In this document: positions 57,650-61,970 of the stretch, in pieces
Layout: each line of letters opens with the position of its first letter
Position numbering within the stretch: position 1 is the first letter of the stretch
Notes under the pieces: model-generated
What the model was told of the DNA's origin: nothing
Databases searched by the model: none
Seen by the model: the letters and a program-made list of their open reading frames with translations, nothing else
Made by a program: the position numbers and the translations under genes
Assembly: GCA_032027045.1 (NCBI GenBank)
Contig: JAVSMU010000001.1
Span: forward strand, 1,934,039-1,998,038
Reading direction: 5' to 3'
Origin: Truepera sp.
Lineage (GTDB): Bacteria; Deinococcota; Deinococci; Deinococcales; Trueperaceae
Length of the DNA: 64,000 nucleotides

Positions 57650-58399
57650 TCAGAGCTGCATGACGCTGAAATCGAGCCGGTCGTCGTCCAGCAACAGCTC
57701 CATGAACTGCAGCTTCCCCAAGGCGTCGATCATGGCGAAGCCGTTCTCGCGGTCGACGTAGACCCCCTCTTTCATCACGGTGTGGCCGTAGACCCCGAAG
57801 CGGTGGCCCGCCTGCTTGACCAGCTCCGGCTTGTTGAACCACCACGACTTGGTGTCGGGGTCGTGATAGAAGAAGTCGTCGAACACCTGCATGCCCGGCA
57901 GTGGCCCCGCGTGGGCGAACTGGACGCCATGGAAGACGACCTCCCTGGGCATGGCGCCGAACCACTCCTTGAGGTCGGCGGGTAGCTCCAGGCCACCCTT
58001 GGACGGGTCGAACTCGACGTGGTTCATGCCGCCCCGCGTGGAGAGCTGGTAGCGGTGGTCGCGCGCGGCCTCGTCGTGGTTGCCGAGGATGACCGAGACG
58101 TTGCCACCCGCCTGATCGACGTAGCGCTTGAAGCGGTACAGCTCACGGATCTGCGCCTTGGCCGCCCGCCTCAGGTGATCGGAGTCGGTCGGGTCGTAGG
58201 GCTCCTCACCCACCGCGTTGGCGTAATCACGGGCCTCCTTGTAGTGGACCAGGTCGCCGACGCAGACCACCTTGTAGCGCCCCTCTATCACGGCTTGGGT
58301 GGGTTCAAGCGTGGGGGTGGCGGCCGCGGCGGCCTTGAGGACGCGCCACAACTCCGGCCACTGCCCGTGCACGTCGCCGATGGCGATCACCTTGATCAC
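57650..58399 (-). CDS. Metallophosphoesterase (PPP-like, intact)
   Basis: A 249-residue calcineurin-like phosphoesterase with every motif intact: IGDVHGQW, VGDLVHYK, GNHDEAARD, a FAHAGP histidine and VYGHTVMKEGVYVD. It resembles PrpA-type Ser/Thr phosphatases or Ap4A hydrolases (ApaH branch). It contrasts with the degenerate relative at 25.3 kb. GTG start at 58399. Same strand as, and 34 bp after, the Rad52/DdrA-like gene; the two may be co-transcribed. Confidence 0.88.
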   Translation of the reverse strand: MIKVIAIGDVHGQWPELWRVLKAAAAATPTLEPTQAVIEGRYKVVCVGDLVHYKEARDYANAVGEEPYDPTDSDHLRRAAKAQIRELYRFKRYVDQAGGNVSVILGNHDEAARDHRYQLSTRGGMNHVEFDPSKGGLELPADLKEWFGAMPREVVFHGVQFAHAGPLPGMQVFDDFFYHDPDTKSWWFNKPELVKQAGHRFGVYGHTVMKEGVYVDRENGFAMIDALGKLQFMELLLDDDRLDFSVMQL

Positions 58400-58433: not shown

Positions 58434-59201
58434 TCACGTCGCCTCCGCCCCGCTCTTCAGCAGCGCACGCAGGCGGCCGTACAGTTCGCGAGACTCCTCC
58501 GCCGTGCTGCCGTAGCCGTTGTAACGAACGACCAGTCGCGCGGCTTCCCTGCCCTGCCCGGCGGCCTTGAGGCGCTCGACCAGCCGTTCGATGACCTCAT
58601 GTCCGGAGTTCTGGACCACAGCAACGCCGGCGAGCCGTTGGGTAGCGTCCGCCGACAAGGTCTCATCGTCGGGCGGTGCCGTGGCGGCGCCGACGCCGAT
58701 GCCTCCTTGCGCCGAGCCGGAGGTGGCTGCTTGCGCAGTCTGCCCCGTGGCGGGACGGCCGGCCGAGGGAAGGCCCTCGGGAAGGTGCGCGACGCCAACC
58801 GGTTCGGGCTCGTACAGCGGCACCTGGGCCTCGGGGTCGTAGTCGACCCAGTAGCTCGGGTCATGTGTAGCGAACGGAAGGCGAAGGCCGAAGAGCTCGG
58901 CGCAACGCGCCAGCACGACCGCGGCGGCGCTTTCGGGGTTCACGCCGGCCGCGTTCACCACCTCGGCCCTGGTGACACCCGAGAGTGTGAGGTTGCCGAC
59001 CAGGGCGGCGGCACCCAGGGGTGCGAGGGTGAACGACCAACCCCCCGCTCCATGGGCCTGGTCGAGGCGTCTGACCACGGCCTCGCGGTCTGCGTACGCT
59101 TCGAGCCTGGCTCTGCCGGCGGAGTCCAACTCGGCGACATGCCACCGCAGGGCTTCTGGGGCCATCGGCATGGTCGGGCTGGCACCGGCTTCGGGCTGCA
59201 C
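58434..59201 (-). CDS. Divergent Rad52/DdrA-like protein
   Basis: A 255-residue protein. Residues about 20-130 resemble the Rad52-fold single-strand annealing domain of Deinococcus DdrA: a helix ending VVRRLDQAHGAGGWSF, strands around LVGNLTLSGVTRAEVV, a helix SAAAVVLARCAELFGL (the usual KAAxSDAxKRxAxxFG position) and YWVDYDPEAQ. A low-complexity linker (about 140-185) joins a helical C-terminus (VIERLVERLKAAGQ...SRELYGRLRALLKSG). DdrA binds 3' ssDNA ends in radiation-resistant Deinococcus. Basic residues of the helix are poorly kept, so annealing activity is uncertain. GTG start after a TATAGT box. Confidence 0.65.
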   Translation of the reverse strand: MQPEAGASPTMPMAPEALRWHVAELDSAGRARLEAYADREAVVRRLDQAHGAGGWSFTLAPLGAAALVGNLTLSGVTRAEVVNAAGVNPESAAAVVLARCAELFGLRLPFATHDPSYWVDYDPEAQVPLYEPEPVGVAHLPEGLPSAGRPATGQTAQAATSGSAQGGIGVGAATAPPDDETLSADATQRLAGVAVVQNSGHEVIERLVERLKAAGQGREAARLVVRYNGYGSTAEESRELYGRLRALLKSGAEAT

Positions 59202-59207
59202 GACAGC

Positions 59208-59213
59208 ACTATA
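59208..59213 (-). promoter_or_regulatory. Leaderless-type -10 box for the DdrA-like gene
   Basis: TATAGT on the minus strand ends 6 nt before the GTG at 59201. One of the best -10 matches in the window. No Deinococcus RDRM palindrome was recognised. Confidence 0.6.
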
Positions 59214-59300: not shown

Positions 59301-61970
59301 ATGTTCTCCTTCCGCGCCGCCAAGAAACGTGCAGGCGTGCCGCAAGCGCTGCACTCCACCACCCTTTCGAGGCTGCTGCCGGCACTCCTCTCGTCGCTGG
59401 CGATCGCCTTGAGCGTCGCGCTGGCCCAGTCCGTACCCATGGTCGGGCTCGACGCCTTCGATTACGAGGTAGGGGACGTACTGCACCTGACCGGTGACAA
59501 CCTGGGTCCCGGCGACGCCTACCGCGTGTCGGTCGGCCCGGTTGGCAGCGCCCCGCTCGTGAGCGTGGAGCGAGCCGACGCCTCGGGCTCGATCAGCTAC
59601 AGCACCAGCCTCGAGGCACCGGGCGATCACATCGTCCACGTGGAAGGGCCCGGGCTGAACGCGAGCTTCACGGTCTCCGTTGCGCCCAAGGCCGGCCAGT
59701 CCGGCACACCGCCGCCAGTCCGCACGCCGGAACAGTCGCAGGAGCCGAGCAGCACGGAACCGTCGCAGCAGCCGGGCAGCCCGGGAACGTCACAGCCGCC
59801 CGCAGTCACGGGCGAGCCAGGAACGCCCGAACAACCGGGAGCCGCGCCGCAGGGGCCGGTTCCCACACCTCCGGCCTCCGCCGAGCCGAACTCACAGGAA
59901 CCCGGCGACCAAGGGGCTCAGGGCACCCCTGGCAGCGTGCCCGGGAGCGCCGCGAGCGGGGCTTACCCTACGGCGCAGCTCGTCGACGGCTCCGTGGAGG
60001 GGGTACGGGGCGGTGAGACCGTGTGGTCGCTCAGCTTCCCGCCCCGCAGCGGCGAGACGGCGGGACTGCTTCAGAAGGGCCTCGACGTATACGTCGGCCA
60101 CGGGAACGCCGTGCTGCTCATCGACGCGCGCACCGGGGTAGTCCAGAAGCGCCACCGCCTCCCCGCTCAGGTGTCCGCCATCTCCTTGTCGGGCGGAGTA
60201 CCGCTGGTCACCCTCAGCTATTCCAACGGCGCCGAGGGCCGCGCGGCCATCCTGTCCACTGGTCCGGAGGACGCCGAGCCGTTCGATGTCGACCCGGACC
60301 TCTACGGCTGGCTTCGCAACGAGGCCGCCGTGGCAGATCCGGCCTCGCGCCTCCAGCAGGATCCCACCAACCCCTGGCTATACCTCGAGGCCATGCGCTC
60401 CGCGGCGCCGGGCAGTTCCGAGGAGTCCAAGGCGCTCGAAGGGGCCCAATCCAACGCCGTCACGTTCTACGAGCGGGCGCAGCTCGCCCGCGAGTTGATG
60501 CGCTTCTCACCACCTCACCGCGAGGCGGCCGCTACGGCCATGTATGGCGCCTTCGACGACTTCGTCGCCCGCGGCTACCGCCCGGAACTCCTCTTCGATC
60601 GAGATCTGGCACAAGCCTACGGTTTCCCCCTGGACGCCCTCGAGTCGGCCCTTGGCAAGGGCGACATGCAGGCTGCCGCGTTCTGGGCCGAGAGGGTGTA
60701 CCTGCTCGCCACCCCGGCCGTTCCCGAGACGCAGGCAGCGCTAAGGGAGTATTCCTCCTACCTGAGAGTGGACGGCCAGCGCGAGGCCGCCGACCAATGG
60801 CTCGAGCGCTCACGCGAAGGCGCCGGCTTCGGCCTGGCGTCCGCCATCCGGAAGGTAGCGCTAGACGTGGGCCGCACGGGCTGGTACGGCGTCGCGGCGC
60901 TGTTGGTGGCGCTCCTGGCGCTCTACGTGGCCCTCGCCGCCAAGTACTGGCGCCCACAGTCCCTCAACCTTCGCCGCCAGTCGAGCAAGGGGGGTGGAGC
61001 GCGCTTCTTCTTCCTCCGCTACGCCACCTTCACCGAGAGGCTGGTGGCCGTGCTCCTGCTCATCGCAGCCGCGTGCCTCGCGTCGCTTCAGGGGTGGGCT
61101 CGAGATGGCGACACGCTGCCGGCGGCCTGGGGCTCAGGCTCCCTGGAGTCGGTGCCGGCACTCGACGCGCTGGCCCGCATGCCGGAAGACGGCGCCGACA
61201 TGGCGTTCGTTCGGGGCTACGCCGAGCAGACCTCCGGCGCCGAAGACCCTGCCGCCGAGGCCTACCGCAGCGTGCCTAACGTGGCAGCGGCGGTCAACAA
61301 CCTGGGCGTGTTGTTGGACGACCCCTCGCTCTTCCGCCGTGCACTGGACTTAGAGCCAGGGTTGCCGGCGGCGGCCTTCAACCTCGGCCAGGGCAGCAAT
61401 CCGTCGCGTCTGATGGCGACCTTCGCCCCCGACATGAAAGCGTTGGTGGTGCCCGACGAATCGCGGCTCCGTAGCGCGGTGGCCGGTTCGTTCCAGACCG
61501 CGCTGGCCTCGGTGTTCACCAACCCCTGGCAGACCCTCACCGGGGTGGCCGGCGTGGGACTGGCGCAGTGGTTATGGCTCGTCGTCGTCGTGGCGTTCCT
61601 ACTGTTGACGCTCGTCAACGTGGTCATGCTCGTGCTGCCGCGCCCCCGAGTCGCGCGCAACGCCCCCCGCACGCCGCTCTATCACCTGCTGGCCATCCTG
61701 CTGCCGGGCACGGGGCAGGCGGACGAGTTGTGGGGAGTGCTGCTGTCGGTGCCGTGGGCGATCTTCGGTGTCGACCTGCTGCTGCATTACATGCCCCTGG
61801 GCGTGGGTCCGGCGATGGGCCTGATGACGGACCTGATCGCGCTTGGCGTCATCTACCTCGTGAACCTGGTCGCGTTCCTCGTCGAGTTCGGCTCGTACCA
61901 GCGGAGGATGCGGGCGTTGCGGGCCAACGACCCCGAAACGGCCCGCGCTTACGGCATGAAAGCGGGCTGA
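59301..61970 (+). CDS. Large multidomain envelope protein of unknown function
   Basis: An 889-residue protein I do not recognise. Residues 1-43 look like a signal peptide (LLSSLAIALSVALAQ), followed by an immunoglobulin-like IPT-type domain (FDYEVGDVLHLTGDNLGPGDAYRVSVG), a Pro/Ser/Gln/Glu-rich stretch of about 90 residues, a beta-propeller-like segment (GLDVYVGHGNAVLLIDARTGVVQKRH), helical TPR-like parts, and at least five transmembrane helices after about residue 525 (YGVAALLVALLALYVALAA; LVAVLLLIAAACLASLQ; LWLVVVVAFLLLTLVNVVMLVL). A second TPR-like tract lies between helices (NLGVLLDDPSLFRRALDLEPGLPAAAFNLG). It may sense or assemble envelope components. A DMT transporter gene follows by 10 bp. 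Confidence 0.8.
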   Translation: MFSFRAAKKRAGVPQALHSTTLSRLLPALLSSLAIALSVALAQSVPMVGLDAFDYEVGDVLHLTGDNLGPGDAYRVSVGPVGSAPLVSVERADASGSISYSTSLEAPGDHIVHVEGPGLNASFTVSVAPKAGQSGTPPPVRTPEQSQEPSSTEPSQQPGSPGTSQPPAVTGEPGTPEQPGAAPQGPVPTPPASAEPNSQEPGDQGAQGTPGSVPGSAASGAYPTAQLVDGSVEGVRGGETVWSLSFPPRSGETAGLLQKGLDVYVGHGNAVLLIDARTGVVQKRHRLPAQVSAISLSGGVPLVTLSYSNGAEGRAAILSTGPEDAEPFDVDPDLYGWLRNEAAVADPASRLQQDPTNPWLYLEAMRSAAPGSSEESKALEGAQSNAVTFYERAQLARELMRFSPPHREAAATAMYGAFDDFVARGYRPELLFDRDLAQAYGFPLDALESALGKGDMQAAAFWAERVYLLATPAVPETQAALREYSSYLRVDGQREAADQWLERSREGAGFGLASAIRKVALDVGRTGWYGVAALLVALLALYVALAAKYWRPQSLNLRRQSSKGGGARFFFLRYATFTERLVAVLLLIAAACLASLQGWARDGDTLPAAWGSGSLESVPALDALARMPEDGADMAFVRGYAEQTSGAEDPAAEAYRSVPNVAAAVNNLGVLLDDPSLFRRALDLEPGLPAAAFNLGQGSNPSRLMATFAPDMKALVVPDESRLRSAVAGSFQTALASVFTNPWQTLTGVAGVGLAQWLWLVVVVAFLLLTLVNVVMLVLPRPRVARNAPRTPLYHLLAILLPGTGQADELWGVLLSVPWAIFGVDLLLHYMPLGVGPAMGLMTDLIALGVIYLVNLVAFLVEFGSYQRRMRALRANDPETARAYGMKAG

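Follow-up and report, generated by a model that had tools for sequence, protein, structure and literature searches.

A divergent DdrA/Rad52-superfamily protein of Truepera with a central helix of zero net charge and a metallophosphoesterase neighbour

Introduction

Does a DdrA/Rad52-like protein that has lost most of its DNA-binding charges still act on DNA ends, or does it serve another purpose? The question is raised by a gene for a 255-aa protein found in a 64,000-nucleotide stretch of DNA from Truepera sp. (contig JAVSMU010000001.1, positions 1,934,039 to 1,998,038; in the following, the window). The source genome comprises 2.92 Mb in a single contig. DdrA (DR0423) of Deinococcus radiodurans binds ssDNA 3' ends and protects them, and behaves as an 8-10-mer in solution (PMC515370). 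In 2007, a study described DR0041/Dgeo_0188 of Deinococcus as a Rad52-family paralog of DdrA and named TTC1923 of Thermus thermophilus, a radiation-sensitive species, as a DdrA homolog (PMC1978522).

A first-pass annotation, made from the sequence of the window alone, described the product of the gene as a divergent Rad52/DdrA-like protein and suggested that it could be the DNA-end-protection factor of this lineage. The goal of this study was to examine both statements by comparison with orthologs, related families, and predicted structures. The features discussed are compiled in Table 1.

Table 1. Location of the features at the DdrA/Rad52-like locus and of a second Rad52-type gene in the same genome
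Feature	Position	Strand	Basis
DdrA/Rad52-superfamily gene, 255 aa	58434..59201	(-)	ORF, orthologs, conserved -10 box by the start codon
-10 box TATAGT with extended TG, putative leaderless promoter	59208..59213	(-)	immediately 5' of GTG
N-terminal domain, Rad52 fold beta-beta-alpha-beta-beta-beta-alpha, acidic, without lysine	residues 1-135, 58797..59201	(-)	AlphaFold model, hhalign, charge count
Central helix NPESAAAVVLARCAELFG, counterpart of the ssDNA-binding helix DALKRAAVKFG	residues 88-105, 58887..58940	(-)	alignment
Low-complexity linker, predicted disordered	residues 136-197, 58611..58796	(-)	pLDDT, identity
C-terminal three-helix domain	residues 199-252, 58446..58607	(-)	identity, sharing with Thermaceae and others
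Metallophosphoesterase, 249 aa, second gene of the predicted operon	57650..58399	(-)	PF00149 E 3e-13, adjacency, fold
Rad52-type gene with intact basic helix AEAQAFKRACTKFGLGRYLY	G000:C1:422486-423145	(-)	Rad52_Rad22 6.4e-5

Results

The gene and its promoter

The window protein finds a match in 40 of 41 relatives, and its orthologs within the genus are 50-59% identical; the reading frame is therefore a genuine gene and not a chance ORF. A profile search with the Trueperaceae orthologs matched 85/85 good-quality genomes of the phylum, with DdrA-type members included in this figure. The GTG at 59201 was taken as the start codon because 16 of the 19 Trueperaceae orthologs have a TANNNT box precisely at -12 to -7 relative to their start codon. 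Leaderless promoters of this pattern are common in the phylum (PMC12340547). Unlike ddrA, which carries a radiation-response motif (RDRM; PMC1978522), the window gene showed no RDRM-like palindrome in 300 upstream bases by a simple consensus count, the best site agreeing at 6/10 fixed positions.

The N-domain diverges fast, with a mean identity of 37% across Trueperaceae, as would be expected of a decaying relic under relaxed selection. A relic is nevertheless very improbable: every good-quality Trueperaceae genome searched holds an ortholog with an open frame, the residues W20, R45, L46, W55, and D122 as well as the C-terminal core are invariant across the orthologs, and the promoter is conserved.

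Homology to Rad52 and DdrA

Homology of the protein to Rad52/DdrA is secure. The motifs on which the first-pass annotation had based its assignment (RLD...GWSF, LTLSGVT, ARCAELFG, and YWVDYD) are present in the translated ORF, and the assignment was backed by profile, profile-profile, and fold comparison. The window protein alone gave no significant Pfam, NCBIfam, or PDB match in hmmscan and phmmer searches, and matched the Erf-like ssDNA annealing profile phrog_1097 weakly (0.0052). As the single protein is too divergent for such sequence searches, the profile matches were obtained via its orthologs: phrog_1097 matched all 19 of the Trueperaceae sequences (best 5.8e-10) and Rad52_Rad22 matched 4/19, weakly. 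The Thermaceae orthologs share the C-terminal domain and also have the phosphoesterase gene next to them; their matches to PF04098 reach 4e-19. In hhalign comparisons, the Trueperaceae N-domain profile (C-terminal domain removed) aligned to a Rad52-positive set with an E-value of 1.4e-27 and to L034, a DdrA-like protein of the Deinococcaceae family, with 4e-15.

The predicted structure points to the same family. In the AlphaFold model, which is of the monomer, the N-domain core is confidently modelled (pLDDT ~90) and appears to adopt the fold of Rad52. Human RAD52 (Z 9.2, 4.4 Å over 120), yeast Mgm101 (Z 8.9), and phage 80a Sak (Z 8.7, 2.6 Å over 96) outranked all other folds, with Z-scores of 8.0-9.2 vs 6.5 for the next. 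The first-pass annotation would have fallen had no profile matched or had the predicted fold been unrelated to Rad52, and neither proved to be the case. The window protein shares the N-domain fold with these three proteins, but identities are 12-18%, the DNA-binding residues are not kept, and the C-termini differ.

Charge loss in the central helix

The central helix reads SDALKRAAVKFG in Thermus vs AVVLARCAELFG in the window protein. Its net charge is 0, compared to +2 to +4 in canonical members, which agrees with the earlier remark that most basic residues of this helix have been lost. In human RAD52, the ssDNA-binding helix contains K152, R153, and R156; an alignment with RAD52 assigns A98, R99, and E102 to these positions. 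The basic ssDNA-binding helix of the Rad52 superfamily is not found in the window protein. A similar charge loss was observed in the f2 copies L030 and L058, whereas the Thermaceae copies examined retain the basic helix and contain 7-12 lysines in the N-domain.

These exchanges bear on the reading that the protein is a working DdrA-like ssDNA-annealing or 3'-end-protecting protein, which would bind via its remaining arginines and a basic C-terminal domain. The Rad52 fold and the net charge of +2 in the C-terminal domain are in line with this, as is the binding and protection of ssDNA 3' ends by DdrA itself. Some ssDNA binding may persist, since R99, the equivalent of R153, remains. Moreover, a separate canonical copy was not found in 18/25 Trueperaceae, where the window-type protein may therefore be the sole Rad52-type protein. 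The N-domain, however, has no lysine and a net charge of -7, the equivalents of K152 and R156 are Ala and Glu, and a similar charge loss runs throughout the Trueperaceae copies. On balance, we regard annealing or 3'-end protection as unlikely, although it is the chief rival of the reading preferred below.

For the same reason, that of degraded ssDNA-contacting residues, and with no RDRM-like palindrome found upstream by the consensus count, the role of DNA-end-protection factor of the lineage is possible but unsupported. It is weakened further by the Thermaceae, which share the operon described below though the 2007 study has T. thermophilus as radiation-sensitive (PMC1978522), and by a second Rad52 gene elsewhere in the Truepera genome, whose basic helix is intact.

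This second copy (Table 1) is surrounded by genes that, on reading their sequences, are ArdC-like, DUF3987-like, SEFIR-like, and type III restriction-like; it likely sits on a mobile element. Close relatives of it were found in 7 of 25 Trueperaceae, with two equal-scoring copies in G021. If the genome has a conventional annealing protein, this copy is a better candidate than the window protein. The idea that the helix degenerates only alongside a canonical second copy was rejected, given the 18 Trueperaceae in which none was found. The same description, a canonical Rad52-type paralog with an intact basic helix in such surroundings, applies to L039:7484-8146.

Linker and C-terminal domain

The linker has a mean identity of 18% in the genus, and its pLDDT is below 50 over residues 144-175 and 177-197. 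It is followed by helices at 200-213, 217-226, and 234-254, which AlphaFold modelled with high confidence. The C-terminal domain is the most conserved part of the protein, with 74% mean identity in the genus vs 54% for the N-domain, and it aligned to the Thermaceae domain with an E-value of 6e-24 (hhalign). The first-pass description of a helical C-terminal domain after a low-complexity linker was thus correct, but not that this domain is the protein's own, since four families of the order have conserved it. In another family, the DdrA-type proteins terminate in a weaker relative (hhalign probability 76%; none of 30 column shuffles exceeded 4%).

Comparison of the domain with solved structures returned chance-level matches only. 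No copy was found in viral contigs, and among plasmids the domain occurred only in pOCEPR01 of Oceanithermus profundus. On this plasmid, typed as conjugative, the domain belongs to a Rad52-type protein whose N-domain is basic (NC_014753.1:120903-121652).

The neighbouring metallophosphoesterase

A metallophosphoesterase gene lies 34 bases 3' of the DdrA/Rad52-like gene on the same strand, and in several relatives its start overlaps the stop codon of the gene before. From this arrangement, a two-gene operon with the DdrA/Rad52-like gene first is predicted. The metallophosphoesterase is present in 40/41 relatives, and the two genes lie side by side in 34 of 40 genomes, which come from four families (Trueperaceae 23/25, f2 3/3, f3 4/4, f4 4/4; f5 0/4). 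We defined an operon group by the C-terminal three-helix domain together with an adjacent metallophosphoesterase, and the window locus has both. The pairing is not obligatory, as two Trueperaceae (G007 and G008) keep the DdrA-like gene without an adjacent phosphoesterase and in f5 both genes exist but lie apart, with only a DdrA-type protein.

The fold of the phosphoesterase is nearest to Shewanella PPase I (Z 17.5), and a Z-score of 16.1 was obtained with the PnkP phosphatase domain of C. thermocellum; the next matches were an Ap4A phosphatase and PPP phosphatases. An assignment as PdeM was rejected, the match being weak (0.013) and far under the cut-off. These results allow for a phosphatase subunit without any DNA role, in which the Rad52 fold would be a leftover oligomer platform for an enzyme acting on nucleotides or phosphoproteins. 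The PPP-like fold, near Ap4A phosphatases too, would suit such an enzyme, and within the genus the phosphoesterase is far better conserved than its partner (83-90% vs 50-59% identity). We consider this quite improbable, however, because the partners in the same operon of Thermaceae keep the canonical ssDNA helix, which points to DNA, and because PnkP phosphatase, too, ranks among the closest structural matches.

Some further observations were made around the two genes. A second metallophosphoesterase paralog, 35% identical to that of the operon and widespread in Trueperaceae, is located at G000:C1:1808354-1809064 (+). In G007, the stop codon of the DdrA-like gene (L107:7250-7918 (-)) is followed by a short sequence similar to the beginning of the phosphoesterase. 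A divergent secreted or membrane protein of 889 aa is encoded at 59301-61970 (+) of the window; G007 has a homolog at the corresponding position (L107:7973-10438), and L015 has part of one.

Discussion

In the best reading, the 255-aa protein is the form that a DdrA paralog, ancestral in Deinococcota and vertically inherited, has taken in Trueperaceae. Most likely, it is orthologous to the DR0041 group, which is likewise a DdrA-related second Rad52-type protein of the phylum; the Deinococcaceae-family loci L030, L051, L054, and L058 served as stand-ins for DR0041. With DdrA, the window protein shares a homologous N-domain (as seen via L034) and, weakly, the last C-terminal helix; in the DdrA-like L034, however, the central helix is still basic and most of the C-terminal domain is missing. 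The Rad52_Rad22 protein of Thermus and Meiothermus, of which TTC1923 is an example, has the same domain order, C-terminal domain, and phosphoesterase neighbour, but retains the canonical basic helix. A tree of the N-domains did not resolve the phosphoesterase-linked copies as one clade (AU p 0.20), so that the tree speaks neither for nor against a single origin.

As to function, we lean towards a DdrA paralog that has turned into a scaffold or adaptor working with the phosphoesterase, and rate this somewhat better than an even chance. It is favoured because the fold and, even better, the C-terminal domain are kept while the DNA-binding charges are gone, and because of the linkage to the phosphoesterase. 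At every step of this mechanism, from assembly through recruitment, we infer what the protein might do: the Rad52 domain would still self-assemble but would no longer grip ssDNA in the usual groove; the conserved C-terminal domain may recruit a partner, either the phosphoesterase or a protein bound to ssDNA, for example SSB; and the scaffold could thereby bring the phosphoesterase to damaged DNA or DNA ends. A more far-reaching version is put forward tentatively and is rather doubtful: an annealing protein of Rad52 type that, in Trueperaceae and the sampled members of the Deinococcaceae family, has been turned into a scaffold which no longer anneals but serves a phosphoesterase dedicated to DNA ends, the pair being an ancestral two-component DNA-end module of Deinococcota.

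While the DdrA paralogy has been known since 2007, the papers searched gave no description of the operon and its spread through the phylum, of the C-terminal domain that the family shares, or of the charge loss, and no mention of a metallophosphoesterase together with Rad52 and Deinococcus was found in the open-access literature searched. Trueperaceae, including the radiation-resistant Truepera, gain a chromosomal DdrA-family gene that is missed by Pfam's Rad52 model. A family of DdrA paralogs is tied to a phosphoesterase kept as a neighbour across four families of the order, and a testable proposal for the role of these uncharacterised paralogs is at hand. The basic form in Thermaceae and the acidic form in Trueperaceae offer a natural comparison within one protein.

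Among the DdrA-type proteins of f5, the members L055, L056, and L057 carry a Cys-rich N-terminal extension, CPHLSPxGxWCRLxxNFxCPA, which was not seen in the other members read.
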